Counted from the stretch's first letter, positions 17,761-35,110 are shown. The stretch: DNA of 47,033 bases from Methanomicrobiales archaeon HGW-Methanomicrobiales-2 (GCA_002839645.1 PGYL01000031.1:34641-81673); one strand, 5' to 3'. Notes: generated by a model from the sequence alone, not told the origin. Program-made: numbers and translations.

Positions 17761-18798
17761 TCAATCCGTGGCACGGTATGCTATGGCAGCATCCGGTTCC
17801 TCTCCCACCGGGACGGGCCACCCGGCCCTCCCTTCGCGGAACATGTCCAGAACAAAGTCGACAAACATCCGTGCTTCGTCCGGGTGGGGTGCGTTTGTGG
17901 GAATCGTGACGGCGTAGACGATTGGTTGCCCGATCCGCTCGCTTCCGATGGACCGGAACCGCTCAAAGCCGAGGGTCACGTGCACCTTCCGGTAATCGTC
18001 GGCGTGGGCCGCAGAACCAAGGTTGATCTCAGGAGGGAGGTCGATCCACCGGAGCCCATGTTCCTCCGCGACGCTCTGGTACTCGAAAGCGTAGTCGATC
18101 CCGCCTGCATCGAGGAGCGAGAGAAGGTAGATGCTCCCATCACGGATGGCGACCTTCTCGTCTGCCGGCCTCATCCGTTCCGGCAGGGTGATCGTCGTTA
18201 CGCCCTCCGCGCGGGCAGGTACGAGCGGCGGGTCGAAGGAACCTCCGATGACTGCCTCAAAGAGCCCGGGCTCACTGTAATGCTCCCCGGCAAGCGCCGT
18301 CACCATCAGCGCACGGTAGCCGCAGGCGTCGAGCATGGGGTTTGAGAACCCCACTCGCACGTCCGGACGGGCCAGGATCCGGTACCAGTTCTCCGCCGTT
18401 ATCTCATCCGCGCCGGCGCTCCGGTCGGTGTATGCGATCACGATCTCGTTTGCTGCGAAGGGAACGTACCAGTCGGTGTAGTTTCCTTCTCCCTCGCTCA
18501 TCGGGATGTACATCATATCCGGGATCAGCGAGGCATCCGCGACCGCGACAACATCGATCGCCCGATGAAGGTCCGTCACCTGCCGGATGGCCTGGATGCT
18601 CCCGTGCCCTTCGACGCGGACGTCGATCTCCGGGTGCCGGCTCTCGAAGGCGGCCTCCACCTCCTCCAGTGGGGCAAGGAGGCTCCCGGCCGGGACCACC
18701 GTGAGGGCGGTGCGCTCCGGTCCGGGATCGGTGCAGCCTCCTGACGCCGCGAGGAGCGCGAGGGCGAGCAGAGCGAGGATCACTGCCGGCCGGGTCAT
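17761..18798 (-). CDS. WtpA-like substrate-binding lipoprotein (tungstate/molybdate type)
   Basis: A 345-residue exported lipoprotein: a hydrophobic signal of about 20 residues, then lipobox AASGGC (Cys about residue 22). The body resembles the WtpA/ModA periplasmic-binding group: LTVVPAGSLLAPLEEVEAAF, DVVAVADASLIPDMM, NEIVIAYTDRSAG, VGFSNPMLDACGYRALM, and a C-terminal YAVTIPTNAPHPDEARMFVDFVLD. WtpA binds tungstate or molybdate for an ABC importer, but no permease or ATPase gene is present here. It is the last gene of the exported-protein operon and overlaps the upstream SUOX-fold lipoprotein gene by ATGA. It may capture oxyanions or serve only as a sensor. Confidence 0.85.
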   Translation of the reverse strand: MTRPAVILALLALALLAASGGCTDPGPERTALTVVPAGSLLAPLEEVEAAFESRHPEIDVRVEGHGSIQAIRQVTDLHRAIDVVAVADASLIPDMMYIPMSEGEGNYTDWYVPFAANEIVIAYTDRSAGADEITAENWYRILARPDVRVGFSNPMLDACGYRALMVTALAGEHYSEPGLFEAVIGGSFDPPLVPARAEGVTTITLPERMRPADEKVAIRDGSIYLLSLLDAGGIDYAFEYQSVAEEHGLRWIDLPPEINLGSAAHADDYRKVHVTLGFERFRSIGSERIGQPIVYAVTIPTNAPHPDEARMFVDFVLDMFREGRAGWPVPVGEEPDAAIAYRATD

Positions 18799-19364
18799 CT
18801 CCTGTGGACCTCGAGCCGGTCAACCCACTTCACCCAGGGGCTTCCTTCGGTGATGACGTCAGGATTCTCGGTGATGACGACGAGGCGAAGCGGCCCGCCG
18901 TCTTCGTACGCCAGGGGTTCCCCGTCCTGTTCGTAGGCCAGGATCACGCGGAGTGTCGGTGCGGGGATCTCGTGGAGGTTCTCGTCGAAGGTGAAGAACT
19001 CCTCTCCTCTCAGCTGCGCGGCATCGAAGACCCAGAGGTAGCCGTCTTCTGCGGAGACGTAGATCAGGTCGTCTGCGCCGGCCCCGCCTGCCATCTCAAC
19101 GAGATCGGCGAGCAGTGCGCCGCGGTAGCGGTTCGGGCCGTACTTGATCCCGACCGTCGAGACCGAGTAGCCGTAACCCTCGACGGCAGGCAGTGCCCGG
19201 ATCTCGGGGTGTGTGAGCACTCTCTCCGGGTCGCCGGCAAGCGTCAGGTTCCAGGCCACCTCGTCAGCGACGACAGCCGGGCCGAGACACCCGGATGCGA
19301 GGGCCGCAGCCCCGATCAGCAGCACAGCGAGGAGGGTCTGATAGCCCCGGTGCATCGGGATCAC
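18795..19364 (-). CDS. Exported lipoprotein with sulfite-oxidase-like (SUOX) fold domain
   Basis: A 189-residue protein with a signal peptide and lipobox LASGC (Cys about residue 26). The rest matches the molybdopterin-binding oxidoreductase fold by its order of elements: RYRGALLADLVEMAGGAGADDLIYVSAEDGY, then ILAYEQDGEPLAYEDGGPLRLVV, then WVKWVDRLEV. Where true enzymes have the molybdenum-ligating Cys, this protein reads SVSTVGIKY, so it probably does not bind the cofactor in the usual way. The start is GTG 19364, overlapping the upstream stop as GTGA, with GGAGAGGGGC just before it. Its partners are the WtpA-like protein and a second SUOX-fold protein. Confidence 0.75.
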   Translation of the reverse strand: MIPMHRGYQTLLAVLLIGAAALASGCLGPAVVADEVAWNLTLAGDPERVLTHPEIRALPAVEGYGYSVSTVGIKYGPNRYRGALLADLVEMAGGAGADDLIYVSAEDGYLWVFDAAQLRGEEFFTFDENLHEIPAPTLRVILAYEQDGEPLAYEDGGPLRLVVITENPDVITEGSPWVKWVDRLEVHRR

Positions 19365-20197
19365 GCCCCTCTCCGGGCATGGAGCGCCGCCGCAGCGAGG
19401 GCCGCAGCAAGCGTCACCCCGAGGGGGAGCGGGGTTGTCGGCGGTTCGGTCGTCGTCTCCGCTCCCGGGCCGTCGAGAGATCCTGCAAGGGCCCCCTTCT
19501 CGCCGTGGAAGCCACCGGTGTAGACCCGGACCTCATCTATCCACTTCACCGTGAGACCTCCGGTGGAGGGATAGAGGTCGTAGAAGTGCTGGGCCGACTC
19601 CGGGAGCGTATCGTACATATCCTGGTTCCCGTAGACCTGGAGGCCTTCAGCGTTGGTCGAGTCGTCGGCAAAGAAGACGAGGCGCATCCCGGTGTAATAG
19701 TCGGGGACGTAACCGCACCCCTGCCGCTCGCCTGCCCCTGTCTCGGCGCCGTTGTACCAACAGATCCCTATGGGTCCCTGGCGGGGATCGGGCGTGTAGA
19801 CATTCTGGTAGGCAAACTCGACATGGTAGCCGTCGGCCGCCCGGACCATGATCTCGTCCCCGGGTTCGGCGCCGCCGACCAGCTCGGCGAGGTCACGAAC
19901 GGCCGTTCCCTTCACGGCTCCCCTGTCCTTGAAGTTCGTCGTCTCCTCAGGGTCCCACTTGTCCCCCTCGAAGACCGGGCCCTGGTGGTAGTAGTGGGTC
20001 ACGCCGTCCCCGAGGACCGGGAGGTTTGCCTCCATCCAGCGATAGTCAATCGTTGTCTCGTTTAAGACGGTGGCGCCGTCAGCTGCAATTTTTACAACGT
20101 GCAGTTCTGTCGTCGGGGCCGCCGAGGCGGCAACGGCGAGCATGCTCACGCAGAGGAGCGCAAGCAGTATCTTTGACAATATACGCATCATCTTCAT
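19361..20197 (-). CDS. Secreted SUOX-fold-like protein with C-terminal membrane anchor
   Basis: A 278-residue protein with a cleavable signal (MKMMRILSKILLALLCVS...AASA) and a long domain that recurs in two other proteins of the window. Shared landmarks are TTELHVV, a YRWMEANLPV segment, HYYHQGPVFEGD, AVKGTAVRDLAELVGG, RAADGYHVEF, PDPRQGP and GYVPDYYTGMRLVFFAD, ending in LTVKWIDEVRVYTGG. The KGT...DL...GG, ADGY and KWID elements fit the SUOX fold without its Cys. A Thr/Pro-rich linker and a hydrophobic C-terminal segment ending ARRGA anchor it to the membrane. The start ATG 20197 overlaps the phosphoesterase stop (ATGA); an ATG two codons later is better spaced from GGAG. Confidence 0.78.
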   Translation of the reverse strand: MKMMRILSKILLALLCVSMLAVAASAAPTTELHVVKIAADGATVLNETTIDYRWMEANLPVLGDGVTHYYHQGPVFEGDKWDPEETTNFKDRGAVKGTAVRDLAELVGGAEPGDEIMVRAADGYHVEFAYQNVYTPDPRQGPIGICWYNGAETGAGERQGCGYVPDYYTGMRLVFFADDSTNAEGLQVYGNQDMYDTLPESAQHFYDLYPSTGGLTVKWIDEVRVYTGGFHGEKGALAGSLDGPGAETTTEPPTTPLPLGVTLAAALAAAALHARRGA

Positions 20198-21381
20198 CTC
20201 CGTAATCTGTGCAATTCTGATGTATCGAGGAGGAATGCCAGCACATCCCACCATCCGGCATCTGCGGGGAGGCGGACGGCGTCGATCACGGTCCCTGGTG
20301 GGTACGGCGTCACTTCGCCGTCTTCCGCGACCTCCGCGACCGCGACCATCTCGAGATCGATGGCATCGGGGCTGATGGTAGCCCGGACATAGCCGAGGGT
20401 CTGCCCGCGACCCGCCTGGTACCCCTCGGGCTTCTCCTCCGCGAGCGCGTAGAACGGAGCCCCGCCGCACCCGACGACGAAGTATTCCGTCCCGCCTGCC
20501 CGGTAGCGCTCGTATGCGTGAGTGTGCGCGCTAAAGACAGCTTCCACGTCGTTGTTCGATAAAATTTCGCCCCACTCGTTCCTGATCGCCTGGTCTCCTC
20601 CGGGATGCTTCAGGTCGGAGCTGAACGGCGGATGGTGGAACGCCGCGATCTTCCGGGGCAGGGGGGACGCGAGGTCTTCTTTTAGCCATGCGGTCTGGGT
20701 CTCCATATCCGCCCATGCCCGGTCGTTGCTGTCGAGGACGGTCACGTGGAGGCTGCCGGCGTCGAAGGAATAGTATGGCGGCAGATCGAAGACGGCGGAG
20801 AACGCCTCCGCGGATCCGTCATGGTTGCCCGGCACCGGAACCAGGGTCGTGTTCCGGAGCATGGGTCCCGCTACCGCGAAGAACTCGTCCCATTCCTCCT
20901 CCTCGCAGATGAAATCGCCGGTATGGATGACGAAGAGAATATCCTCCTCAGCGGCTATCCTCTCCGCCACCAGACCGTGCCGCTCGGCCTGGGTGAAGAA
21001 GGGCTTCTGAGCCCGGGTGTCGCCGTAGATGATGCAGGTGAACGCCTCGTCCCCGAATGTCGTAAACCTGCAGTCTCCTGTTGTCTCGTTCCCGGCTCCG
21101 ACACGATAGCGGTAGGTGGTCGCCGGGGTAAGGCCCGTGAGCAGCACATGGTGGATGGTCCCCGTCCCGGGAGAGGGTGTGCGGTACGTCTCGCCGCCCT
21201 CGGGAGCGTATTCGACCCAACCCTCTGCTTCTCCAACGATTCTCCAGCTGACGACCGCCGAGTTCTCGCTGGTGTTCGTAACATATGGTCCCCAGACGAC
21301 GGCGGCTGATGCCCCCGGGAGGAGAAGTGCGAGCAGCACGGCAGCAACTGCCACGAAACGGAAGTTCCGGCACCGGATCAT
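20194..21381 (-). CDS. Secreted purple-acid-phosphatase-like metallophosphoesterase
   Basis: A 395-residue exported enzyme. A signal peptide (about residues 1-26) is followed by a fibronectin-like N-terminal domain (WGPYVTNTSENSAVVSW to TTYRYRVGAG) and a calcineurin-type phosphoesterase domain. The metal ligands are visible in GDTR, HTGDF, GNHDG, HHPPF and SAHTHAYER, in the correct order. It should hydrolyse phosphate esters outside the cell, with two metal ions. Both ends overlap neighbours by 4 bp, placing it inside the exported-protein operon. The final residues lack a membrane anchor. Confidence 0.88.
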   Translation of the reverse strand: MIRCRNFRFVAVAAVLLALLLPGASAAVVWGPYVTNTSENSAVVSWRIVGEAEGWVEYAPEGGETYRTPSPGTGTIHHVLLTGLTPATTYRYRVGAGNETTGDCRFTTFGDEAFTCIIYGDTRAQKPFFTQAERHGLVAERIAAEEDILFVIHTGDFICEEEEWDEFFAVAGPMLRNTTLVPVPGNHDGSAEAFSAVFDLPPYYSFDAGSLHVTVLDSNDRAWADMETQTAWLKEDLASPLPRKIAAFHHPPFSSDLKHPGGDQAIRNEWGEILSNNDVEAVFSAHTHAYERYRAGGTEYFVVGCGGAPFYALAEEKPEGYQAGRGQTLGYVRATISPDAIDLEMVAVAEVAEDGEVTPYPPGTVIDAVRLPADAGWWDVLAFLLDTSELHRLRR

Positions 21382-23948
21382 TGGGCATCCTCCAGGACCA
21401 CCATGCGCCGGGTCGTCTCTCCCGGCCTCACCAGCACGTCCTCGATTGTCCTGGAGTCATCCTCAGAGACGGCCCTGACCTCGTAAGTCCCGATGTTCAT
21501 GCCGGCGAAGGTATGCGGCGTCTTCTCCCCGGTGTACCGGCCATACAGGTAGATCTTCGCGTCCGGGACCGTGCTCTCGACGAGGAGGTTCCCGTGGGTA
21601 TACTCGCGGAGCGTGCAGGTGATGGCACCGCCGGTGTCCGATCCCTCCGGTATCGTGATAACCTCCTCGGCGGGGAGGTAGCCGGGCATCGAGACCAGGA
21701 TCCGGTGCTGGCCGGGGGAGAGGCCGTCCACCCGGCATGGCGTGATCTTCCCGGTGGGGAACCCGTCGATGAAGACCGCGGCACCTTCGGGACCTGAACT
21801 GACGCTGATCGAGACGGCATCTTCGCTCTGCGGTTCTACCGTGTACGCCTCACCGGCCACGATGCTCGAGGGGATCGCATGTGAGCGATAGGTTCCGTTC
21901 CAGAAGACAGTGATCCAGGATTTTACGCCTTCGACCGCTGCATCACCCGGGATGGTGCCGGCAGGGTAGAACCCGTTCACTGTGAACTTCTCACCCTGAT
22001 AGGTCTCCGAATCAATCCTGACGGTTTTCTTGCACTGGGTTGTCAGGCCGTCGAGGAAGACCGGCGCTACTGCATCGGGGTAAACCCAGGCCTGGAGCGT
22101 CTCAAACCGGTAGCCGGACTCTTCTTTGTTCCTATCTGGAGCGCTCTCTTCGACCAGAATGTTGTGCAGGCCTTCACGGAGGCCGTAGGCGACCTGAGGC
22201 GTCTTCCAGACCTGTTTTTTGTTGTCGATGACGATTGTCATGCCCGGAGGGTACGATTCGATGTAGAGCCCGCCGGAGTGATTCGTCATGATCCGCGTCT
22301 CACCCAACGTCTGTCCGGGGAGCACAGGGGTGCCGGTCGGCACGGGGGTTATAGCACCTTCGCCGGGGGCGGGGGTGCTCTCCGGCCCCGGTGGGGCTAT
22401 CGTATCCTCTCCCATTCCGAAGAACAAGAGCAGCCCGTTCATGAAAGTGAGGATGGTTTCGATGAAAGCCTCAATAGGGTTGTTCGGCGCCGGGTGCCCG
22501 ATTACGGGTTCATCGCGGCCTGTGGTGGTGTTCGCTCCGGCCTCACCGCCTGCCGGGGAGAGGAGCAGATCAAGGGCGATATGCCCGCCCTCATCGACAG
22601 TGACGGTCCTGGTGGCGTTCCGGTAGCCCGGCATCACGAGATGGATCGTATGCTCGCCGGTCGGGACATCTTCCAGGGTCACATCTGTCCAGAACCCCGT
22701 TGCGTTTCCGTCAAGGTAGATGCTTGCGTTCGTTGGAACCGAGGATACGGTGATCCTTCCATTTCCCGTGGTGGCTTTGCCTGTGGTACTGTTTTCGAAG
22801 ACCAGATCAAGGAGACTGCACTCGTCCCCCTCGATGGTGACAGCCCGGGTGATATTCCGGTAACCCGGCAGCACGAGTTCGATCGTATGATCGCCGGACG
22901 GGACATCTTCCAGGGTCGCATCTGTCCAGAACCCTGTGGCGTTCCCGTCGAGGTAGATACTCGCGTTCATCGGGACCGAGGTGATGGCGATGCTCCCGTT
23001 CCTGGAGCCTCCGCCACCACTGCTGCTACCGCCGCCTGATTCGGTCTCGGGGGTGAGGTTGAACTCAACCCCGGCAACAGCGTTCGCGACAACATCGACC
23101 CATATATCACCGGGCTGGATGAATCCCTCCTTCTCGACCCGGACGGCAACGGTCCCTGTCTCGATCCCGGAGAGGGTGCAGGGAGTCGTATCGCCGGTCT
23201 CTTCGCCGTCAATGAAGATGGCGGCCCCGGGGGGTGTCGAGTTTACGTGTATGCTCCCGGTGGGCTCTTCATTGCTGTAGATTATGACGTCGCTCACGTA
23301 CTGCACGGAGAGGCCCGTGGTGGTAGGGATTCCGGGCTGGAAGAAGTACCAGTCGTCGGGATCAAAGCACTCATGCATATCCCATATGCCGAAGGCGTGG
23401 ATGCCGTTTTGGTTGGTCGAAGTATCCGCGAAGAAGATAAGGCGCATCCCGGTGTAGTAGTCAGGGACATACCCCTCGTCGGCTCGATACCAGGTGACGA
23501 CCATCGGCCCCTGCCGGGGCTCCGGTTCGTAGACGTTCCGATACGGGAATGTCTTCGACATCCCATCTACTGCCCGGACCTTGATGGTATCCTCCTCAGC
23601 CATCCCGCCGACAAGGTTGCAGATCTCCTTGAGATCCGTCCCCTTCACCGCGCCCATATCCTTCTCAAGAACGTTGACGTCCTCTTCGGGGTTCCAGGGG
23701 TCTCCCTCAAAGACCGGCCCCTGATGATAATAGTGGGTCGTCCCGTCTCCCTGGACTGGAAGGTTCGCCTCCATCCAGCGGTAGTCGACCGTCGTCTCGT
23801 CGAGGACGGTAACGCCGTCGGCTGCATACCTGACGACGTGCAGTTCGGTCGTCGGGGCTGCGGTGGCCGGGGCTGCGAGTGCCAGGAGGACGCAGAGTGC
23901 GAAGATACAGAGATGCAGGGCACAGCCCTGCCGGTGCGCTGATACCAT
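21378..23948 (-). CDS. Large secreted protein: SUOX-like domain plus multiple PEGA repeats
   Basis: An 856-residue protein. The order is: signal peptide (about 1-30); a SUOX-like domain (about 32-230) sharing WMEANLPV, HYYHQGPVFEGD, AVKGT and PDYYTGMRLIFFADTSTN with its operon partner; then at least five PEGA repeats. Two near-identical PEGA copies contain NASIYLDGNATGFWTD. Gly/Ser linkers and a Pro-rich middle (about 500-550) separate the repeats. PEGA domains are short beta-sandwiches thought to bind surface-layer or cell-wall components. GAGGAG lies before the ATG. A seven-T run and a TATA-like stretch at 23961-23976 separate it from the upstream gene, so it probably begins the five-gene operon. 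Confidence 0.85.
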   Translation of the reverse strand: MVSAHRQGCALHLCIFALCVLLALAAPATAAPTTELHVVRYAADGVTVLDETTVDYRWMEANLPVQGDGTTHYYHQGPVFEGDPWNPEEDVNVLEKDMGAVKGTDLKEICNLVGGMAEEDTIKVRAVDGMSKTFPYRNVYEPEPRQGPMVVTWYRADEGYVPDYYTGMRLIFFADTSTNQNGIHAFGIWDMHECFDPDDWYFFQPGIPTTTGLSVQYVSDVIIYSNEEPTGSIHVNSTPPGAAIFIDGEETGDTTPCTLSGIETGTVAVRVEKEGFIQPGDIWVDVVANAVAGVEFNLTPETESGGGSSSGGGGSRNGSIAITSVPMNASIYLDGNATGFWTDATLEDVPSGDHTIELVLPGYRNITRAVTIEGDECSLLDLVFENSTTGKATTGNGRITVSSVPTNASIYLDGNATGFWTDVTLEDVPTGEHTIHLVMPGYRNATRTVTVDEGGHIALDLLLSPAGGEAGANTTTGRDEPVIGHPAPNNPIEAFIETILTFMNGLLLFFGMGEDTIAPPGPESTPAPGEGAITPVPTGTPVLPGQTLGETRIMTNHSGGLYIESYPPGMTIVIDNKKQVWKTPQVAYGLREGLHNILVEESAPDRNKEESGYRFETLQAWVYPDAVAPVFLDGLTTQCKKTVRIDSETYQGEKFTVNGFYPAGTIPGDAAVEGVKSWITVFWNGTYRSHAIPSSIVAGEAYTVEPQSEDAVSISVSSGPEGAAVFIDGFPTGKITPCRVDGLSPGQHRILVSMPGYLPAEEVITIPEGSDTGGAITCTLREYTHGNLLVESTVPDAKIYLYGRYTGEKTPHTFAGMNIGTYEVRAVSEDDSRTIEDVLVRPGETTRRMVVLEDAQ

Positions 23949-23980: not shown

Positions 23981-24979
23981 CTACTTCCTCCTCATGAGGA
24001 GGAATGCCGTCAGTGCTGCAATCAGCACGACTGCGAGGGCCAGCGCCCAGGTCGGGAGCGCAGGTCCGGGTTCCGTGGCTGGAGTCCTCGTTTCCTCTGC
24101 TCCCGCTGCCACTGTCTCCGGGATGGTCCATGCCAGGGCATAGATGCTGAAGTGTTCGACCTCTGCGGTGATCGTCCGCGTGGCGGGGTCCACCGTGGCG
24201 GTGATCTCCTGCCATTCGCCGCTCTCGGGGTTGTACCACATCACCGAGAGTGTCGCGCCTTCGCCGATCTTTGCCCACTCTTCCGCCGAGAGGGTGTAGG
24301 TGAGAACGGCCGGCGGGTCGAACGTGGCGCCCGCAGGTCCGCATGAGAGCGCAATGGCAACTGTCGTTCCCGGCGGTGCGGGTGGGACTTCAGCCGGAGC
24401 AACTTCGCTGCAGGTCACCTCGCCGAGCGGGTTGCCGTCTCTGTCGCGGGCGACGGTGCCCCCGGGTATCGTCACGGCACCGATCTCGTTCTCGGTCCTG
24501 ACTGTCACCTGTTCGAGCACCATTCCGGTCGTTGAAGTCGTAAGGGACGCACGCCCGGTGAAGACCTCCGGGACTGCAGGAGCATTCGGGTCATAGGCTA
24601 TCTCCGACCCGGGGTCTTTGGAGGAGGACCCTCCGCTGCTGGGACCGCCGCCCCCACCACCGCCGCCACCGCTGCCGGGCGTGGGCGTAGGCGTGCTCTC
24701 CCCGGCGGCAGCAGTCAGGTCAAGGACCGTCACCGCTTCGGATGTGAAGGTCGCGGTCTCCTGTGCGGCCACTCCGTTGACGTAGAACGTGATCGTCGCT
24801 CCCGCCTGATCTGAGGTTGCCATCACGGCAAGGCGGCCCACGAGATTTCGGTCGGAACCGCCATACCGTCCGGCATCCACCGTCTGAACCGAACCGCACT
24901 CGACGCCTCCGATCGTTGCGGTGATCACAGTCCCGGCCGGTGCGGGAGAGCCGGCGATCGTCACGTCTCCGTAGAACAC
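23981..24979 (-). CDS. Surface-protein gene lacking a signal peptide, probably 5'-truncated
   Basis: 332 codons from GTG 24979. It begins directly in a folded domain (FYGDVTIAGSPAPAGTVITATI) that in related archaeal surface proteins follows a signal peptide. A Gly/Ser/Pro linker, a beta-rich middle domain (about 130-290; IGAVTIPGGTVARDRDGNP, HFSIYALAW) and a C-terminal transmembrane anchor ending LLMRRK follow. The frame upstream of the GTG has no ATG before a TGA at 25034-25036, and no other frame offers a hydrophobic leader. There is no ribosome-binding site. The product is anchored but has no export signal, so this is either a truncated gene or one whose start was lost. It is 60 bp from the stop of the 1194-residue protein. 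Confidence 0.65.
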   Translation of the reverse strand: MFYGDVTIAGSPAPAGTVITATIGGVECGSVQTVDAGRYGGSDRNLVGRLAVMATSDQAGATITFYVNGVAAQETATFTSEAVTVLDLTAAAGESTPTPTPGSGGGGGGGGGPSSGGSSSKDPGSEIAYDPNAPAVPEVFTGRASLTTSTTGMVLEQVTVRTENEIGAVTIPGGTVARDRDGNPLGEVTCSEVAPAEVPPAPPGTTVAIALSCGPAGATFDPPAVLTYTLSAEEWAKIGEGATLSVMWYNPESGEWQEITATVDPATRTITAEVEHFSIYALAWTIPETVAAGAEETRTPATEPGPALPTWALALAVVLIAALTAFLLMRRK

Positions 24980-25039: not shown

Positions 25040-28000
25040 TCAGGCGCCGATGGCAGCAAGCGTATCCGCCTCAGTCATGTAGACCCAGTAACCCCGCATG
25101 GGCTCCATCGTGCGCTCGTCGCTGTGAGAATTGCTGTCGCCGCGGATGATCGAGACATCATACTTCTGTTCCTCCGCATCGAAGCCGATCAGGGTCGTCC
25201 AGTGGTTCCCGAGCGAGAGCAGGGTGCTTGCCGCGGACGTGGGTTCGGTGTCCGTAAAGCCGATCGCGTTCCAGCCTTTGCCGAGGTTCTTCGCGGGCGG
25301 GAGGTCGGGCCCGCCGGGGGCGAAGGTCAGGGGGACGGTGCAGGCCTCGTTTGAGTAGATCCAGACACCGTCGATCGGCTGGAAGGAGTCGGCCGCGACA
25401 ACGATCTGCCACTTCTGCTCCAGGCCGTTGTAGATCAGGATCGAGTGGTCGGCGGTATCGACTGTATCGAATACGGCGAAGGTGTTGCTGCCGTCAGCAA
25501 GCCGCTCCGGTGTCGAGACGAAGTTCCAGCCCTCTTCAAGGGAGATCGTCGCATCGCCCGTGGGCGGCTCCACGATGATCGGCACGCCGGCGAGGACGAT
25601 CTCGTCGATGCTCCCGACCTTCTGCTTGTTGGAGGTCAGGGCGGTGCCGACGAGTTTCAGCGGCCAGGGTGCTTTGTCGCCGTCTTTTGGCAGCGGCGCG
25701 CCGTCGATCTCGTCCGCGACGATGATGTTGTTGTTCCGCGCAATGAACGAACTGTTGAATTCAGCAGAGAAGTCGTCACCGGTGCCCTTCGTGCCGTCCG
25801 GACCGTAGTCGATGACGGTCACGTTGTAGCCCGCTGCTGCAAGGTCGTCACGGAAGGGGTCAGTTCCCGCGCTGTGTTTGTTGCCGTCGTCGACCCAGCC
25901 GCAGAGGAGCCAGAGCGGCATCCCGGACCAGACCTGGCCTTCGCCATCCGTCCAGGTCGCGCTGTGCATGCCCATGGCGCAGGCCTTGCCCGACTCGAAG
26001 TAGGAGCGGGTGACGGTGTCGGTGATGGCGCCGGTCAGGACGAGGTTCCAGTCCTCACGTGCGCCCGGTTTGATCTCGATGGTCGCGATCTTCTGGTTGG
26101 AGACACCTGCCGCCGAGGGGTACTGGATGCTGTCCTCCCAGTAGTAGTGCCAGTACGGTTCAGCGAGGCATACTCGCATATCTTCAGCACCGAAGACTCC
26201 GTCGGGGGTGTTGAAGAAGAGGCGCGGTCCGGCACGGTAGTCGGGCGCGTAACCATCCCGCTCCGTCCACCAGGCGACAATAGCCTCGCCCTGCCGGTCG
26301 AGTGGTGTGTAGAGGTTAGTGTAGTTGAGTTTGGCTTCGTAGCCGTCGGCTGCGAGAAGCTCGACCTCCCCTCCCTCCGGGACTCCGCCCACGAGGTCAC
26401 AGAGGTCCCTGATTGAGGTCCCCTTCACGACATCGTCGACTTTACCGAGATTTATGTCCTCTTCAGGGTTCCAGATGTCGTCCGGGACGAAGGTTGGGCC
26501 CTGGAACCTGAGCCGGATACCGTTCTCGCCGCCGATGACGTCCAGATTTGCTTCCATCCACGTGATGGTCTTCGTCGTCTCGTTTACAACGGTCACGCCG
26601 TCGGAGGCGTACAGGACGATGTGGATGGACGGGGCTTCAGTCGGCTCCTGGAAGTCGACGAGCTGGATCTTCTGGACGTTTCCTATGCTCTTGCTCCCGG
26701 CTGCCCCCGCACCCACGAGGCGGAGCGGGTAGGCGTTCCCTTCGATCGGGGTGCCGTTGACCGTGTTTGCGACGATGTAGTCGAGCGGACTCGCCATGAT
26801 ATCCTGGCTTGAGAACTCCTTGCTGTAGGGGTTTTCTCCGCCGGAGGAGACGATCACGGTGTAGCCTGCCTGAGCGAGGCCGATGTTGAAGGCTCCCGAA
26901 CCATGCATGACGTCGTCGTCAACCCAGCCGCAGAGGACCTTTAACGGGACGCCGGTCCAGGTGCTGACACCATCATTGTAGGTCTTCGTGTGGTAGCCGC
27001 ACTCTTCGAACTCCTCTTTCGTGAGGAGGTCTGCGACCTTCGGTCCCTCGACCGCGAGCGTCCACTCCGATTCGGTGATCTCGTCCGGCAGCCCTTCGAG
27101 GGTGATCGTTGCGATGCTGCCGATCTTCTGCTTGTTGGTCAGGGACGGGCCGACGAGTTTCAGCGGCCAGGACGGCTTGTCGCCGTCGGCGGGGAGTGGT
27201 GCCGCGTTCATCTTGTCGGCAACGAGATAGGTGTCGTTCCGAGCGATGTCGGCGCTATTGAACGTGGCGCTAAACCCGTCACTCGCAGTCACCCGCACGG
27301 TGTAGCCTTCGGCCGCCCGCGTGTCGTTCAGTGTCCAGTGGCTGCCATCCTCCATGTCATCGATGACGGCCACCAGGTACCAGAGCGGTATGCCGGTCCA
27401 GACCTGCTCGTCGCCGTCGGTATAACTCTCGCCGTGGCAATCGACCCCGTCCTCAAACTCCGCCTGCGTGAGCGTCCGGTTGAACGCGCCCGCGAGCGTG
27501 ATCTCCCATTCATCGGAGGGTTCGGAGAGGCCGATGAGTTCGATCGAGGTGATGGCGCCGACCAGCTGGCCGGCGCTCACGTCGGCCCCGACGAGCCGGA
27601 GCGGCCAGCAGGGTTTGTTCTTCTCGCCGATGGTCTCCGGGAGCTCGGTGCCGTTGAGGGTGTTTGCGATGATGATCTCATCGTTCTTTGCGACGCTTGC
27701 GCTCTGGAGGTTGATAGAGTAGCCGTCGTCGGAGGTGATCTTGATCGAGTAGCCCTGTGCGGCGAGTTCCTCGTTGAATGCGCCGGACCCATGTCTCTTA
27801 TCATCGTCGATGAGGCCGACAAGGTACCAGAGAGGCATGCCGCTCCACTCGCCGCCGTTCTCATCGGTGTAGGTGGCGACATGCCCGCAGGCGATCCCGT
27901 CCTCGAAGTAGTCCTGGTCGACGGTCTCGGTCGAGGCACCCTTGAGCGTGATGGACCATCCGGATGGTGTCGGGGTCGGTGTCGGCGTCACTGTTCCATC

Positions 28001-28624
28001 CAGATCAACTTCGATCCAGATCAGCGCTGTTGCGACCTCCGGCGTCGGGTCGTTGCCGTAGCAGAAGACGACTTCGTCGCCGTCGGCAAGTGCGAGAACA
28101 TTGAGGGCGTTGGCGGAGTCGCTGTATCCGTCTCTCTCAACGTCGTTGACGTAACAGGCCCACTCGGCCTCGTGCTTAACAAAATCGTAATCCCCGATGT
28201 TGTCGAGCAGGAGAATCTGGCTTGTATCCCACTTCTTGTCGGTGACGTCGTAGGTGAAGCCCTCGCGCTCCGCTACCGCCTGGAGAGCCCCGAGCGGGGT
28301 TAGGTTGACAACGGTATAGGAAGCACCGGTTCCGGAACTAGCCGTGCACTCGAACGTGCCGTCCGTCAGTGCAACTGTCCCGTTGAAGAGTATCACGGGG
28401 CCCTCAGACAGGGTCCCGGCGAATCTCATACCCGACTCCTCTGTCGGTATCACCGTTGGCGTCTCTGTCTCAGTCACTTCAGGGGTCACCGTGGTATTCA
28501 CGGCGCTCTCCCCCGGGCTCACGTTCCCGCCAGGGAGCGTTGCCCCTGCTGCCGGCAGTACCAGCAGCGAGCATACCATCAGTACAAACAGGATGTACTG
28601 AACTGCTTTTCTCTTTTCAGTCAT
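25040..28624 (-). CDS. 1194-residue secreted multidomain protein with tandem SUOX-like repeats
   Basis: Signal peptide about 1-28; a Thr/Pro-rich linker; a DUF4430-like domain (about 70-190, with VNLTPLGALQAVAEREGFTY); three SUOX-like repeats of about 147 residues (about 223-370, 371-517, 518-663). Each repeat has a W(S/T)G(M/I/V)PL start, a Gly-Tyr strand, and an ANTLNGTELP-like then PLRLVGA-like ending. A longer SUOX-like domain (about 664-857, WMEANLDVIGG, RLRFQGPTF) and a fourth repeat (about 858-1013) follow. A C-terminal module with EEGWNFVSTPERLADG and GKGWNAIGFTDTE is common in methanogen surface proteins. No SUOX repeat shows the cofactor Cys at the usual place. ATG 28624 is preferred because a signal peptide follows it. 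Confidence 0.85.
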   Translation of the reverse strand: MTEKRKAVQYILFVLMVCSLLVLPAAGATLPGGNVSPGESAVNTTVTPEVTETETPTVIPTEESGMRFAGTLSEGPVILFNGTVALTDGTFECTASSGTGASYTVVNLTPLGALQAVAEREGFTYDVTDKKWDTSQILLLDNIGDYDFVKHEAEWACYVNDVERDGYSDSANALNVLALADGDEVVFCYGNDPTPEVATALIWIEVDLDGTVTPTPTPTPSGWSITLKGASTETVDQDYFEDGIACGHVATYTDENGGEWSGMPLWYLVGLIDDDKRHGSGAFNEELAAQGYSIKITSDDGYSINLQSASVAKNDEIIIANTLNGTELPETIGEKNKPCWPLRLVGADVSAGQLVGAITSIELIGLSEPSDEWEITLAGAFNRTLTQAEFEDGVDCHGESYTDGDEQVWTGIPLWYLVAVIDDMEDGSHWTLNDTRAAEGYTVRVTASDGFSATFNSADIARNDTYLVADKMNAAPLPADGDKPSWPLKLVGPSLTNKQKIGSIATITLEGLPDEITESEWTLAVEGPKVADLLTKEEFEECGYHTKTYNDGVSTWTGVPLKVLCGWVDDDVMHGSGAFNIGLAQAGYTVIVSSGGENPYSKEFSSQDIMASPLDYIVANTVNGTPIEGNAYPLRLVGAGAAGSKSIGNVQKIQLVDFQEPTEAPSIHIVLYASDGVTVVNETTKTITWMEANLDVIGGENGIRLRFQGPTFVPDDIWNPEEDINLGKVDDVVKGTSIRDLCDLVGGVPEGGEVELLAADGYEAKLNYTNLYTPLDRQGEAIVAWWTERDGYAPDYRAGPRLFFNTPDGVFGAEDMRVCLAEPYWHYYWEDSIQYPSAAGVSNQKIATIEIKPGAREDWNLVLTGAITDTVTRSYFESGKACAMGMHSATWTDGEGQVWSGMPLWLLCGWVDDGNKHSAGTDPFRDDLAAAGYNVTVIDYGPDGTKGTGDDFSAEFNSSFIARNNNIIVADEIDGAPLPKDGDKAPWPLKLVGTALTSNKQKVGSIDEIVLAGVPIIVEPPTGDATISLEEGWNFVSTPERLADGSNTFAVFDTVDTADHSILIYNGLEQKWQIVVAADSFQPIDGVWIYSNEACTVPLTFAPGGPDLPPAKNLGKGWNAIGFTDTEPTSAASTLLSLGNHWTTLIGFDAEEQKYDVSIIRGDSNSHSDERTMEPMRGYWVYMTEADTLAAIGA

Positions 28625-28679
28625 CAAATCAACTCTTTTCTGTTCATAATCTTTCTCAGAGGCCTGTCTGGAGAAATAA

Positions 28680-28753
28680 CATTTTAAACTGGGATCTGGG
28701 GATGTAAAAAAGTTGCAGTTAATTAACTTGCTTAAGTTAACTTGTTTATATTG
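28680..28753. promoter_or_regulatory. AT-rich regulatory region with overlapping inverted repeats
   Basis: Lies between the 1194-residue protein gene (left) and the Cas1-like gene (right). It contains TTAACTT-GCTT-AAGTTAA at 28723-28740, the palindrome GTTAATTAAC at 28718-28727, and two direct copies of TTAACTTG at 28723 and 28737, 14 bp apart. GTTTATATT at 28744-28752 is a TATA candidate on the plus strand and, read inverted, on the minus strand. AGTTTAAAATG near 28690 is another minus-strand candidate, about 60 bp before the ATG of the secreted protein. The spacing fits a dimeric regulator. Confidence 0.5.
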
Positions 28754-28880
28754 ACTGGGATCCCGTTCTTCCCCCACCTGCCCTGCACCGTGAGGATCTC
28801 CCCGGATCCCGCGAATCGATGCATTCATCACCGAAAACCGCCCAATATTCATTTCCAGAGTGATTGGATGACTCCAGGAG

Positions 28881-29699
28881 GTGAAGCACCTCCTGGTCGT
28901 CGGCGGCCATACCCTGCACACCTCGGCGGTGACAAACCTCCTCAAAGCCGGTGCTGCCATCACCTTCTTCGATATCGACGGCACGCCCGTCGGATACCTG
29001 TATCCCTACGGCTACCGGCCGGACGAGGCGGTGCGCCTTGCCCAGGAACGGGCCGCCCCCCACCGGTTCGCGCAGCCGCTGGCAACGGCCGGCCTCCAGT
29101 CGAGGCTTCTCCTCCTTGAGGAACTCTACGACCGCGCCGGGCAGGACATCTTCTACGCCGGAGAGCTTGACTTCCTCCACCAGGCCAGGGAGGAACTCGC
29201 GGTCGCGGTCACCATGGAGGAACTCCGGAGGCTCTCCCGCCTGACCGCCGATATGTACTATGAGATCCTCTCCCGCACGCTTCCGCCGGGACTCGGGTTC
29301 CGGCGCAGGACGAGCCGCCCTTACCTCGACCCCGTCAATGCCATGTTTTCGCTTGGATACGCGATGCTTTATGGCAACTGTTGCGTCTCAATGATCGGTG
29401 CCCACCTCGACCCCGACCTCGGCATGCTTCACGAGGGGGCCGGGAGCTTCGTCCACGACCTCATCGAACCGCAGAAAGCGACGATGGTGGACCGTGCCGT
29501 CCTCCGGTTTGCCCGGGACGAGGTCTCGGACGGGGACTATGAATGTGGTGAAAAGAGATGCTATCTTGATGGGAACCTCTCGGCCCGGCTGGTCACGGCG
29601 CTCCGCGACTCCATCGACCAGTCGCGTATCGATGCTCAGGTGCGCATCCTGCGTGACGCGCTCCTCACGAACGCCGAGTTTCACGTGCTGTACTGGTAA
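28881..29699 (+). CDS. Solo Cas1-like protein, shortened and lacking the first catalytic Glu
   Basis: 272 residues. The body follows Cas1: HLLVVGGHTLHTSAVTNLL, ITFFDIDGTPVGYLYPYG, a helical middle, RRTSRPYLDPVNAMFSLGYAMLYG, and the catalytic block GMLHEGAGSFVHDLIEP (His184, Asp193 and Glu196 in the expected order). In the LSRLTADMYY segment Ser119 stands where Cas1 has its first metal-binding Glu. The start is GTG 28881, with GGAG touching it and a TGA two codons upstream in frame, so about 25-30 residues of the usual N-terminal strand region are absent. No cas2, other cas gene or CRISPR array is in the window. Solo Cas1 proteins outside CRISPR loci are known in methanogens; integration activity here is doubtful. 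Confidence 0.78.
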   Translation: MKHLLVVGGHTLHTSAVTNLLKAGAAITFFDIDGTPVGYLYPYGYRPDEAVRLAQERAAPHRFAQPLATAGLQSRLLLLEELYDRAGQDIFYAGELDFLHQAREELAVAVTMEELRRLSRLTADMYYEILSRTLPPGLGFRRRTSRPYLDPVNAMFSLGYAMLYGNCCVSMIGAHLDPDLGMLHEGAGSFVHDLIEPQKATMVDRAVLRFARDEVSDGDYECGEKRCYLDGNLSARLVTALRDSIDQSRIDAQVRILRDALLTNAEFHVLYW

Positions 29700-29968
29700 C
29701 TGCCCCGCTGGATGGTGAACTCGGCGTAGGCGGCAGGGGGGATCTCCTGCTGGATAAGATCCCTGACGACGACCCGGGGGCACCCATAAAGCATGGAGAC
29801 GAACTTGTCGAGGACGACGGGTTCGGCGGTTGCGGTGATGAGCACCCTCCCGTCAGGGAGGTTCATCGCCTCGCCGCCGACCCCGAGGTTGGTGGCGATC
29901 CTCTTGATGCACGCGCGAAACCCGACGCCCTGCACCCTTCCTGAGATCCTGATCTCGAGCGTCTTCAC
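29681..29968 (-). CDS. acyP: Acylphosphatase
   Basis: A 95-residue enzyme that hydrolyses acylphosphates such as carbamoyl or acetyl phosphate. The family pattern is ISGRVQGVGFRACIKRIA with the catalytic Arg of GFR, and AMNLPDGRVLI with the catalytic Asn. The start is GTG 29968, overlapping the stop of the upstream 1188-residue gene as GTGA. Its 3' end overlaps the end of the convergent Cas1-like gene by 19 bp. Confidence 0.92.
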   Translation of the reverse strand: MKTLEIRISGRVQGVGFRACIKRIATNLGVGGEAMNLPDGRVLITATAEPVVLDKFVSMLYGCPRVVVRDLIQQEIPPAAYAEFTIQRGSYQYST

Positions 29969-32900
29969 AGCCAGTGCTCCTGGATGATCCGCATGGACAT
30001 ATCCAGCTCGTCGTAGACTTCGTCCCGGAGCGTCGAGTCGCGGATGTTGAGGGCTTCGCTCACAGCCATGTCGAGGATCTCCCGTGAGCGGTCTTCGTAG
30101 CGCTCCGCGTAGATCCGGCACGCGATATCACCGAGCACAAAGGCCCGCCGCGAGAGCGGCCTGATGATCCGTGCCTCTTCGAGCGCACAGAGGAGCATCC
30201 TGTCCGCAACCTCATGCTGTCCTGCGTTCCTGGCGATGAGGTAGAGTTCGGTGTAGTAAGTCGCCCGTTTTGCCCGGTCCGGTGCCGCCCGTATCGCCCG
30301 GTCGAGTGTCACCATGTCTTTTGTGGTGTAATTGCCGCTCCGGATCTTATCCCGGCAGTCGAGGATCCTGCCGTAGACCGTGTTCTTCCATGACTGGGGC
30401 ATGGCCTGCTCGAGCTGGACCATCAGGCTGTACCGGATCCGGTCATCGTCGATGGTGGAGACGATATCGGCAGCCCGCTGCTGGACGGCTGGCTTCCCAC
30501 TCGCCCGGTAGAACGAGAAGAGCATCTGGGCCATCCGCTGTTGCGTCATGGCGGTGATGAACGGGATCTGGACGTAGCCGGTGGTTCTCTCCATACCTTC
30601 CAGCAGTTCATCAATCTCCTTTTCGTCACCGTAGGACTCGGCGAACTGCGCCACGTCAAAGAGCATCGAGAGCCGCACATAGGGAGAAGGAATGCTCACG
30701 ACGGTGTGGCACATTGCCGAGAGGATATCCTTTCGCTGTGCAGGTTCGGTGACCATATCAAAGACCGCTGCGAGAGCATCCACGTACTCGACCGGATCCT
30801 CGATCCTGCTGACCTGCCCGATCGCCCACTCGACGTCCTTCTCCTGCGGGCTTACGGCGCTGAGGCTTCTTGCGGCGTAGATCAGGTTCTTCCTGACGAA
30901 TGCTTCCCGTTCCTGCCCCACGAACTCAAGCGTCTCCTGCGCCTCGGCAAGGTAACTTCTGGCTGTGCTATGGTCGATCCCGGCCATGAGTCCGGCGAGG
31001 TCGGAGAGCATGATCGCACGGATGGGCGGCTCGGAGATGGTGCCGATGGTCTCATGGAGCCTCCTGATGATTGTCTCGGCCCGCTCTTCGTCGCCGAGGA
31101 CCGAATAGGCGCTCACGATCCGGTACATCCCGGAGTAGCGCGCATAGACGTCGCCGGTGTGCTCGAAGAGGCGGTACATCAACTCGAGGACCGGCTGTGT
31201 CGTCGCTCCCCCCTCGATCCCCTCGAGCAGGTAAGCCGTCACTTCATAAGGATCGGCCGAGTCGAACTCCTTTGTGTAACTGGTGAAGAAGGTGAGAATC
31301 CTCTGGATCATGGCGGTCCGTTCGTAATTCCCCTCGATCTCCAGGGAGAAGAGCGTCATGGGGACCGCAAAGATCGGACTTCTATAGACCTGCGTGTACT
31401 CAAGCATGATATCGACGTAACTCGCGATCTTGATCGATATCTCCTCGCGCGGGACGCTGGTCTGGAGGAGGGCGAGCGCGATCTCGAATGGTTCCATCAT
31501 GCCGTCGAAGATCCGGGCCTTCCCCCGGGAGAGCTGGTCCGCCGCCTGCAGGCTCCCGACCCGGACGTAGCCCTCGATGAGGGGGTCGGCCAGCTGCCGC
31601 TGCAGGGACGGGTCGCTGATCTGGGAGAGGATCTGGGCTGCCTCATCCAGCGCCCGGAGCGAGAGCTGCTCGATACCGTACATGATCAGGCCGTGGATAA
31701 CCTTGCCCATCGCGAAGAGGCAGTAGTCCCGCTCCAGCAGGGATGTGGAGAGGACCCGCATCCCGTGAAGCAGGTCGAGGTCGCCGTCCTCTACGGCGAG
31801 CACGGCCGCCTGGTCCACGATGCCGCCCATCGCCTCGGCCCGTGCCCGCTGATCCATGATCTCGCAGGTGAGGGCTGTCGCATGCCGGAGGAGGTCCCGG
31901 TCTTTCCGGGTGACGCCGATCCGTGCCATCTCGACGGCGATGGTCGAGATTGCCTGCTCACGCAGGGTCTGCTCTTCGATCTGGCTCACCATGTCCACGA
32001 GGGCCGATGGGTCGTTCTGGCGGACGAACCCCCGCTCGATCAGGATGGTGTTGCACTCAAGGAGCAGGGGGTCCTGTGCACGGTGCGATCCTGCGAGCTC
32101 CTTTATGGCCGGTATGTGCCTGACGACTTCGTCAAAGTCGTACTCCTTGCAGAAGTCGGTCACCGCCTGGTGTACCAGCGAGTCGGCAATATCGATATCC
32201 AGTGTGGCGAGGATGTTCTCACGGACGAGTTTGATCTCGTCACGCCGGACACCCTCCTTGATCAGGCGGACACTGGTGTCGAAAAATTGGGCGTTGATCC
32301 TCTGCGTGCTGGTGCTGGCCTTCTTCATGACCTCGATCGCGTGGTAGAAGTCGCCCATCCGGGAGAGTGCGTCGGTGATCTGCCGGTAGAGTTGGGCCGC
32401 CTTTGCGGCGTCACAGGACTCGTCGATCAACGGTGTAATGTCGAGGAGGATGGTCGGGTTACCGCTCTTCTCGACGACTGCAATCCCGGAGAGGACGATC
32501 TCCTCGATGGGGAGTTGGGTCTCTCCCACGCCGCGGGCATTGAACTCGAACGCCTTCTCGAGGAACCAGCGGTCGCCACTCCGCTCTGCCTTTTTCAAGA
32601 GTTCAAGGACAAGGGTCTGGCCCGCCCACAATTTTTCGTCGTCGATCCTGAGCAGTTTGGAATATACCTGTTTCTTGTCCCGCTGGCGGTCGAGGAGCTG
32701 CTCGGTCAGGATCGCGAGGACCTCAGTGAGCCGCTCTTCGGGTAAGTCCGGGAGGGAGTCTATGATCTGCTCGACGTCGGAGATCTCCTTCTTCAGCGAG
32801 GATTTCCAGGTCGCGTCCACGATGTCGGCGATCGAGTTGGTGCGCCGGATCTTCTGGTTGATCTCGGTAGCGCTCGAAAGTCCGCTGATCACCAGGTTGA

Positions 32901-33531
32901 TATTCCCCGACTCAATGCCGGAGCCGGCGATCGCCCGGGCAACATCGGCGTGGAGTTGCGATTGTCTTGATATGTCGCCGATCTCGGGGAGCATCTGGAG
33001 GGCATACTGCATGATATCGACGTTGTGATGTTTCTGTCCGTATTGGATGAAGAGCGGGATGATCTCGGAGAGGATTGCTGAGCGGTATTTACGGATGCTG
33101 ATCTTATCGAAGGCTTCTCCTCCTCTCTCAATATAGTGGATGTCGCCGGTATCGACCCCGGCCTGGACCAGATCGCGGGAGATCCCGGCGAGGATGTCGG
33201 ACTGGTGGCTCTTACGGTCGAGTTTGTCGACCAGGGTAAATATTACGGAGAACCAGGCTTCATCCTTTTTCTCGCTGTAGAGCGTGGCCGCACGTCTGGC
33301 GAGGGCGAATATCTCTTCTTTGGTCGGTTCGACGAGCTGGCTTAAGAGTTCGGGCTGGGCTTCGTCGAACGCCGCTTCGACCAGGGCGGCATTCATCTGC
33401 TCGTAGAGTGATTTCTTCTCCTTCCTCGTCTGGGTCTCCGATATGTCCGAAACTACCTTTTCAAGCTCACGCAGATCGCCAGAAGAGATAGCGGAGTCGA
33501 TCTTCTGTTTCATCTGTAGGTTTCCATCCAT
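29965..33531 (-). CDS. Giant alpha-solenoid-like protein of unknown function
   Basis: 1188 residues, no signal peptide, no transmembrane segment and no catalytic motif seen. It is almost entirely helical, with repeated units of about 35-40 residues having alternating hydrophobic and charged faces; examples are DISRQSQLHADVARAIAGSG, DPSLQRQLADPLIEGYVRVG and DEERAETIIRRLHETIG. This looks like an ARM/HEAT/TPR-type scaffold acting in the cytoplasm. A TATA box (ATCTATATATC, minus strand, near 33581-33590) lies about 50-60 bp before ATG 33531; a second Met six codons in is possible. acyP is coupled downstream (GTGA). Function cannot be assigned. Confidence 0.8.
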   Translation of the reverse strand: MDGNLQMKQKIDSAISSGDLRELEKVVSDISETQTRKEKKSLYEQMNAALVEAAFDEAQPELLSQLVEPTKEEIFALARRAATLYSEKKDEAWFSVIFTLVDKLDRKSHQSDILAGISRDLVQAGVDTGDIHYIERGGEAFDKISIRKYRSAILSEIIPLFIQYGQKHHNVDIMQYALQMLPEIGDISRQSQLHADVARAIAGSGIESGNINLVISGLSSATEINQKIRRTNSIADIVDATWKSSLKKEISDVEQIIDSLPDLPEERLTEVLAILTEQLLDRQRDKKQVYSKLLRIDDEKLWAGQTLVLELLKKAERSGDRWFLEKAFEFNARGVGETQLPIEEIVLSGIAVVEKSGNPTILLDITPLIDESCDAAKAAQLYRQITDALSRMGDFYHAIEVMKKASTSTQRINAQFFDTSVRLIKEGVRRDEIKLVRENILATLDIDIADSLVHQAVTDFCKEYDFDEVVRHIPAIKELAGSHRAQDPLLLECNTILIERGFVRQNDPSALVDMVSQIEEQTLREQAISTIAVEMARIGVTRKDRDLLRHATALTCEIMDQRARAEAMGGIVDQAAVLAVEDGDLDLLHGMRVLSTSLLERDYCLFAMGKVIHGLIMYGIEQLSLRALDEAAQILSQISDPSLQRQLADPLIEGYVRVGSLQAADQLSRGKARIFDGMMEPFEIALALLQTSVPREEISIKIASYVDIMLEYTQVYRSPIFAVPMTLFSLEIEGNYERTAMIQRILTFFTSYTKEFDSADPYEVTAYLLEGIEGGATTQPVLELMYRLFEHTGDVYARYSGMYRIVSAYSVLGDEERAETIIRRLHETIGTISEPPIRAIMLSDLAGLMAGIDHSTARSYLAEAQETLEFVGQEREAFVRKNLIYAARSLSAVSPQEKDVEWAIGQVSRIEDPVEYVDALAAVFDMVTEPAQRKDILSAMCHTVVSIPSPYVRLSMLFDVAQFAESYGDEKEIDELLEGMERTTGYVQIPFITAMTQQRMAQMLFSFYRASGKPAVQQRAADIVSTIDDDRIRYSLMVQLEQAMPQSWKNTVYGRILDCRDKIRSGNYTTKDMVTLDRAIRAAPDRAKRATYYTELYLIARNAGQHEVADRMLLCALEEARIIRPLSRRAFVLGDIACRIYAERYEDRSREILDMAVSEALNIRDSTLRDEVYDELDMSMRIIQEHWL

Positions 33532-33745
33532 TTTGATCAGCGCTCTCCATTGGGTTCTGCATCATGCATATCCATTATCAGATATATAGATTGCCCCCCT
33601 GTCACAAGAATGTTTTTCAATGGGATTCAGGGAGATCCTCGAAAATATTGGGGGTATGGTAGATGGTAAGAGTCTCTTGCAGCACTCAGGATGGAATGCT
33701 TCATGGGGGGTCGATCTCACTTAGAGAATCAGGCAGGTGAGGCGT
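33532..33745 (-). promoter_or_regulatory. Promoter region of the giant solenoid gene
   Basis: These 214 bp separate glmM from the solenoid gene. The minus strand carries the strong TATA-like TCTATATATCTG at about 33579-33590. The rest (33600-33745) shows no gene or strong hairpin. Confidence 0.5.
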
Positions 33746-35110
33746 TCATACCTGCCTGACCACCCGCATAATCTCCTGATACATGGCATTCGCGACGCCC
33801 TGGTCCTTTGCCTCGATCATGATCCGGATCATCGGTTCCGTGCCCGATGCCCGCACCAGAGCCCAGGCGTTGTCCCTGACGATCTTGATGCCGTCGATCT
33901 TCTCGATGGTCTCTCCGGAGAATGCTTCTTCCACGGCGCGGACCAGTGCGGAAGGGTCCGGGGCGTGATGTTTCTCCTTGATCAGGTGGTATGCCGGCAG
34001 TTCATCGAGGATCTCCGAGAGTTTCCTGCCGTTGTGGCTCGCGAGAACCGCCACCATCATGGCGGCGGTCATGCCTCCATCCCGGCAGAACTGATGGTCG
34101 GCATAGATCAGGCCGCCGTTTCCTTCACCCCCAAACGAGACTTTCTCTCCCCTGCCCATCAGCTCGATCATCCTCCTTGCGACGTAGATACTTCCGACAG
34201 GGGTGTAGTCGACAGTACACCCGTGCCTCTCTGCGATATCCCGGATCAGCCGGGAGGTGGCGACAGGGGTGACGACGAGCCCGCCACCGTTCCTGGCGCA
34301 GACGTAGTCTTCGATCAGACCGAACTCATAGTTCTCTTCGATATAGCGTCCTATGGTGTCAACGAAGACCGCCCGATCAGCATCGCCGTCATGTGCCACT
34401 CCAAAGGCGGCACCCGTGGCGATGACCATCTCCGAGAGGGGCTGCAGCCCTTCGGGGGTTGGCTCGGGCATCCTGCCCGGGAAGGTGCCGTCAAGCCGGG
34501 CGTTGATGGTATGGACCCGACAGCCCATCCTTGAGAGGATGATCGGGGTCGTGAGCGCCGCGGGGCCGGAGCCGGGGTCGACGACGACGGTCATGCCCTT
34601 GCCGATGCCCGCCGGGAAGTGCCCCACGACGGCCTGAATGTACTCCTCGATCCGGTCGGGTGCGGTGGCTTCCGCGCCGACTCCGTCCCAGGGAGCCACG
34701 TTGAACTCCCCGGCAAAGAACCGGTCTTCGAGCTTGATGATCTCATCATCAGACATCTCGGTACCGTCAGCCTCGACGATCTTCACGCCGTTATACTCGG
34801 GCGGGTTGTGGGATGCGGTGATCATCGCGCCGCCGGCAAACCGGTTGGTCTTTATGATATACTGGAGGGCCGGTGTGGGGAGAATGCCCACGTCGACTAC
34901 GTCGCACCCGGTCATCAGAAGCCCGGCCTTGAGGGCGTGGGCCAGGGCTTCACCGGATGTCCGTGTGTCTCTGCCGACTGCTATGGTGCCTTTCCTCATC
35001 GATCCGAGCGCGGCGCCGATCTTGAGGACGAGATCCGGTGTCATCATCTCTCCGATCACGCCCCGCACGCCGTTGGTTCCAAACATCCGTTTTCCGTTCA
35101 TCTCTGTCAT
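33746..35110 (-). CDS. glmM: Phosphoglucosamine mutase / phosphohexomutase
   Basis: A 454-residue alpha-D-phosphohexomutase. The phosphoserine loop is TASHNP (Ser about residue 97), the metal loop DGDADR (about residues 237-242), the sugar-binding loop GEGNGG (about 320), and the phosphate-binding loop RASGTEPMIRI near the C terminus. The N-terminal FGTNGVRG favours GlmM (glucosamine-6-P to glucosamine-1-P) over PGM/PMM. The product feeds UDP-GlcNAc for glycoproteins and lipids. Start ATG 35110 overlaps the MobB-MoaE stop (ATGA). Confidence 0.92.
   Translation of the reverse strand: MTEMNGKRMFGTNGVRGVIGEMMTPDLVLKIGAALGSMRKGTIAVGRDTRTSGEALAHALKAGLLMTGCDVVDVGILPTPALQYIIKTNRFAGGAMITASHNPPEYNGVKIVEADGTEMSDDEIIKLEDRFFAGEFNVAPWDGVGAEATAPDRIEEYIQAVVGHFPAGIGKGMTVVVDPGSGPAALTTPIILSRMGCRVHTINARLDGTFPGRMPEPTPEGLQPLSEMVIATGAAFGVAHDGDADRAVFVDTIGRYIEENYEFGLIEDYVCARNGGGLVVTPVATSRLIRDIAERHGCTVDYTPVGSIYVARRMIELMGRGEKVSFGGEGNGGLIYADHQFCRDGGMTAAMMVAVLASHNGRKLSEILDELPAYHLIKEKHHAPDPSALVRAVEEAFSGETIEKIDGIKIVRDNAWALVRASGTEPMIRIMIEAKDQGVANAMYQEIMRVVRQV

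Follow-up and report, generated by a model that had tools for sequence, protein, structure and literature searches.

The question raised by this locus is what an archaeal row of genes for exported proteins does when it brings together SUOX-fold proteins, a phosphoesterase and a WtpA-like binding protein. The locus lies within a stretch of 47,033 nucleotides from Methanomicrobiales archaeon HGW-Methanomicrobiales-2 (GCA_002839645.1 PGYL01000031.1:34641-81673), henceforth referred to as the window. The genes, designated A to G, and an element upstream of them are as follows.

E, 17761-18798, minus strand: WtpA-like oxyanion-binding lipoprotein (SBP_bac_11 and WtpA matches)
D, 18795-19364, minus strand: SUOX-fold lipoprotein without the Mo-ligating Cys (partial PF00174 match, 3e-12)
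C, 19361-20197, minus strand: membrane-anchored SUOX-like protein without a Pfam family
B, 20194-21381, minus strand: exported purple-acid-phosphatase-type metallophosphoesterase with Pur_ac_phosph_N (PF16656) and Metallophos (PF00149) domains
A, 21378-23948, minus strand: exported protein with an N-terminal C-like SUOX domain (50% identical to C) followed by PEGA repeats (2e-76, six PEGA stretches)
F, 23981-24979, minus strand: surface protein gene with a C-terminal anchor, having orthologues in the cassettes of genus-mates
G, 25040-28624, minus strand: large surface protein with four SUOX-type repeats and one C-like domain (PF00174, 8e-15)
Palindromic element GTTAACTTAAGCAAGTTAATTAAC, 28718-28741, minus strand: about 117 bp upstream of G, beside the TATA-like AATATAAAC

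The sequence-only reading had described genes A to E as joined by 4-bp overlaps. These were confirmed as ATGA for A/B (21378-21381), B/C (20194-20197) and D/E (18795-18798), and as GTGA for C/D (19361-19364); the last depends on a GTG start of D, an alternative ATG at 19355 leaving a 5-bp gap instead. Export of all five products as one unit, also proposed earlier, was borne out by signal peptides read in A and B, a signal peptide and C-terminal hydrophobic anchor in C, and lipoboxes in D (LASGC) and E (AASGGC). The five genes thus stand as described, but the array does not end there: the cassette reaches further upstream to F and G, as in most relatives. The open reading frame of G runs on to 28984, the ATG with a signal peptide being at 28624. 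Between 23981 and 25040, at the 5' end of F, a related locus (L035) reads a signal-peptide start that the window does not. In the window the 5' end of F seems to have suffered a small deletion with a change of frame, unless the assembly is in error at this point. A Cas1 gene (PF01867, 7e-45; 28881-29699, plus strand) lies divergently upstream of G, and a repeat scan of positions 27000-34000 gave no CRISPR array near it.

Four related loci, among them L034, L041 and L059, keep the palindromic element at a distance of 116-117 bp upstream of G. The idea that it is an operator common to wtpABC was rejected: genome-wide, only the copy preceding G matches without a mismatch, and the palindrome is absent from the upstream regions of both canonical wtpA genes. 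A search of the window for riboswitches with Rfam returned a tRNA only.

Conservation of the cassette was surveyed by searching 150 genomes of the same order for D; 56 of them, belonging to six families, have it. In nearly all of these 56, D adjoins an orthologue of E with at least 52% identity. Forty-eight loci were fetched and mapped by profiles together with the window; 48 of these carry D, and the order C-D-E is present in 47 of the 48, spanning six families of the order. The exception is L069, whose genome has E on a different contig (L080). The usual companions of this core are A, B and G in varying order, with G orthologues heading the cassette in many relatives, and the content of A, B, F and G differs from one relative to another. 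Conservation of the gene order outside a single strain, which the earlier reading needed, therefore holds across six families and beyond the order. In one mapped locus (L061, genome G023) E is broken into two frames by a frameshift or sequencing error. A Methanoculleus-type cassette of about 80% identity was also seen on a contig binned as a Clostridiaceae MAG (L089), which is probably mis-binned.

The succession of D and E across six families is more than chance. In four of four relatives checked (G015, G036, G040 and G041), every PF00174 match genome-wide falls in the cassette; such genes are scarce, so the linkage of D to E is no by-product of their abundance. The cassette was also lost as a whole, since a stub of the E C-terminus (57-74 residues aligned) remains between the same flanking genes, one for a 1188-residue protein and a phenylacetate-CoA-ligase-like pair, in three of the four genus-mates checked that lack the cassette. 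The fourth has no E stub. The stubs mark the places where the whole cassette has been lost:

E stub, L124:10121-10315
E stub, L125:9843-10037
E stub, L126:9955-10179

A tungsten enzyme of the AOR family is commoner in genomes with D (40/56) than in those without it (39/94; Fisher p 4e-4, genomes being counted without correction for relatedness).

The SUOX assignment of D was examined with an AlphaFold2 model (pLDDT 90). All 45 PDB matches returned by Foldseek at E<0.001 are SUOX-type, the best being PruR (7kom, 3e-7), followed by SorA, SoxC and sulfite oxidase; the fold first proposed for D is thus upheld, as is the absence of the Mo-ligating Cys. Apart from the lipobox, no Cys is conserved in the mature part of D. 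Where sulfite oxidase has its ligand, as judged by motif reading, D reads VSTVG with S69-T70 invariant in 29 sequences. D shares with sulfite oxidase and YedY (MsrP) of PF00174 the fold and the C-terminal GxPLR...VKW motif. It differs from them in lacking the Cys, and D is therefore not a Moco enzyme of that family; a role of the SUOX domains as Moco enzymes was excluded on the same ground. Two residues of D do not vary, the Arg of GxPLR and the Lys of WVKW, and profile alignments place both at positions common to sulfite oxidases; in sulfite oxidase the residues at these positions contact the cofactor.

Sequence searches of Pfam and the PDB left C without a match even with the threshold at E 10, and NCBIfam gave none either. 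Comparison of C with D by hhalign gave 96.8% over 40 columns, and a model of C (pLDDT 89) found PruR, SorA and YedY as best Foldseek matches (E 2e-3 to 5e-3, probability 0.99-1.00). A different fold for C was discarded because profile and structure comparisons both point to SUOX. The earlier description of C as SUOX-like is accordingly kept in a weaker form than that of D, and C is probably a more distant SUOX-fold protein.

PruR, the best structural match of both D and C, is a Cys-less SUOX-fold protein that binds reduced pterins (PMC13259868). D resembles it in being small, exported and of SUOX fold, and in lacking the Mo-ligating Cys. Unlike Vibrio PruR (7kom), which has Trp at the corresponding place (GPFWLI), D keeps the Arg in GxPLR. 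D is also, unlike PruR, linked to WtpABC, and the cassette and its mapped homologues have no gene for a DcpA-type periplasmic-domain partner.

In B, the metal and catalytic residues D121, D156, N186, H187, H249, H250, H286 and H288 are identical in 26 of 26 homologues. Because all eight purple-acid-phosphatase residues are kept, B probably works as an active phosphoesterase. A role in handling phosphate esters, as suggested from the sequence, may therefore apply to B. Like purple acid phosphatases, B combines an N-terminal Fn3-like domain with a metallophosphoesterase domain and has all the metal ligands; it differs from them in being archaeal, secreted and co-encoded with SUOX-fold and WtpA proteins.

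E scored 337 bits against the WtpA model TIGR03730, above its cut-off of 242.75, and 308 bits against the WtpA model NF003196, below its cut-off of 355. It matches the WtpA/ModA structure 3cfz in the PDB at 5e-69. Both Ser positions of the oxyanion site and the Asp ligand are invariant in 54 of 54 E sequences. In Pyrococcus furiosus WtpA, tungsten is coordinated by two carboxylates, Asp160 and Glu218 (PMC10221389). The equivalent of Glu218 (RSxE), mapped by motif and spacing and not by structure, is Ser in all 54 sequences, and a Glu stands elsewhere, at YxxEY, in 49 of them. The loss of Glu might be taken as a sign of another substrate; this is weakened by the presence of the same swap in most ordinary WtpA proteins of the same genomes. 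In a midpoint-rooted FastTree tree, WtpA proteins linked to SUOX genes, 54 of them archaeal and 10 belonging to a Chloroflexi class described below, were split from 16 ordinary ones with support of 0.89. E resembles WtpA of the P. furiosus type in passing TIGR03730, though not NF003196, and in keeping the oxyanion-site Ser residues and Asp; it is unlike it in branching apart from ordinary WtpA and travelling with SUOX-fold proteins.

A binding protein of this type would be expected beside a permease and an ATPase, and the first reading had found none. For the window this is correct: no WtpB or WtpC is encoded beside the cassette there, and the complete wtpABC of the source genome lies on another contig. 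Many relatives, among them every mapped member of genus g8, likewise have neither gene beside the cassette. In other relatives, however, the partner genes adjoin E. Seven loci of the order (L049, L052, L055, L056, L063, L065 and L068) have E followed directly by wtpB-wtpC, the permease and ATPase being called by their best NCBIfam matches, WtpB and WtpC; both matches of L068 are below the cut-offs of those models. A further five (L044, L046, L073, L074 and L078) have wtpBC or a complete wtpABC in the immediate neighbourhood. In two other families of this phylum the genes run A/B-C-D-E-wtpB or A/B-C-D-E-wtpB-wtpC (L114, L116 and L117). Shorter loci outside the order (L120 and L121) have E-wtpB. 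Outside the order, WtpB and WtpC are both encoded with E in L116, L117 and L121, and no wtpB stands behind E in L115, L118 or L119. On account of these neighbours, E as an orphan binding protein was rejected. In L114 and L116, B is fused to a C-like SUOX domain. Two of the loci also encode a 649-residue fusion of TupA-like and WtpA-like tungstate-binding proteins (L055:12547-14496 and L068:5892-7841), placed upstream of the C-D-E-wtpB-wtpC array.

A second form of the linkage was found in bacteria. A Chloroflexi MAG (L092) encodes, one after another, a SUOX lipoprotein of three domains, a WtpA-like protein and WtpB. When its class was searched, ten more strong E-type loci were found, each with the SUOX gene directly upstream and WtpB downstream. 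Strong E-type loci of this class thus have both neighbours in 11 of 11 cases, and no SUOX gene accompanies the nine ordinary WtpA loci, weaker in match, that this search also gave. B is mostly absent from this version. Two loci of the class (L135:1-2490 and L159:5639-8203) have SUOX domains and a WtpA-like protein in one open frame. An archaeal-type cassette, B-C-D-E-wtpB-wtpC, with a C 66% identical to that of the window, is present in one genome of the class (G552; L142/L166) and reflects either horizontal transfer or a binning error.

The best-supported reading of the cassette, given a probability of roughly 0.6, is a known transporter type (WtpABC) with undescribed partners, namely a tungstate/molybdate uptake variant with its own exported accessory proteins, the SUOX-fold binders and the phosphoesterase. 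It is favored because C-D-E is kept in nearly all mapped loci, because E adjoins wtpB/wtpC in the order, in other families and in the Chloroflexi class, because E keeps the Ser positions and Asp ligand while its Glu swap is common to ordinary WtpA, and because AOR-family enzymes are commoner in D-bearing genomes and the cassette is lost as a unit. The oxyanion site of E and its WtpB/WtpC linkage in relatives likewise sustain the link to oxyanion capture suggested from the sequence at the outset. Counted against the uptake reading are the missing WtpB/WtpC beside the cassette in the window and many relatives, the score of E under the NF003196 cut-off, and the presence of B, PEGA and repeat proteins, which are not standard transporter parts. 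A literature search covering few subscription journals found no description of this gene composition.

Under the uptake reading, the SUOX-fold domains of G, A, C and D, which lack the Cys, would bind a metal-bearing anion or a small pterin at the cell surface, and B may trim a phosphate-bearing form of that ligand. Released or concentrated tungstate or molybdate would then be handed to lipoprotein E, which would dock on the WtpBC membrane pump that in many relatives is encoded right behind or beside it. In the source genome, E would need the WtpBC of the separate wtpABC operon, presumably used in trans.

The alternative that survives best, although unlikely, is the scavenging of metal-pterins, in which the SUOX-fold proteins would bind extracellular molybdo- or tungstopterin from lysed cells, B would cleave off its phosphate or nucleotide, and the metal oxyanion thus set free would enter through E and WtpBC. 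The pterin-binding PruR as closest solved fold to D, the Arg and Lys that D retains at sulfite-oxidase positions, and the intact phosphoesterase site of B all speak for it. Moco is oxygen-labile, which weighs against its capture outside the cell, as does the Chloroflexi version mostly lacking B. According to a review (PMC13259868), moreover, the truncated site of PruR is probably too small to hold Moco. That the cassette is the first known system to scavenge the molybdenum/tungsten cofactor from outside, with SUOX proteins catching it, the phosphoesterase stripping it and a WtpABC variant importing the metal, is a bolder form of this proposal and somewhat less probable again.

PruR also offers a precedent for signalling, in which D and C would bind a reduced pterin or oxyanion and modulate a partner as PruR does, E being a sensor subunit and not part of the transporter. 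E does occur without WtpBC in many genomes. The cassette, however, encodes no output protein such as a membrane kinase or a GGDEF protein, and the linkage that recurs is to WtpB/WtpC, which leaves a sensing role quite improbable.

Still less probable is a general surface-layer cluster, its genes being neighbours solely through regulation or history. In its favor, PEGA and repeat proteins occur widely as surface modules, and the accessory genes A, B, F and G do vary. Against it stand the C-D-E core kept across families, the 4-bp coupling, loss as a whole unit and the separate occurrence of SUOX-WtpA-WtpB linkage in a class of bacteria. Acquisition of phosphate or phosphate esters, with E binding phosphate or another oxyanion, is the least probable of all, for although the exported phosphoesterase B is intact and usually in the cassette, E is WtpA-like and not PstS-like, with ligands of the tungsten/molybdenum type, and the linked transporter genes score best as WtpB/WtpC and not as Pst.

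Methanogens and their relatives require tungsten and molybdenum. If the uptake reading is true, the cassette would equip a textbook ABC transporter with surface proteins dedicated to it and would bear on how traces of the two metals are captured at the archaeal surface ahead of the pump. It would also account for a set of archaeal SUOX-fold proteins in which the metal ligand of the enzyme is missing.
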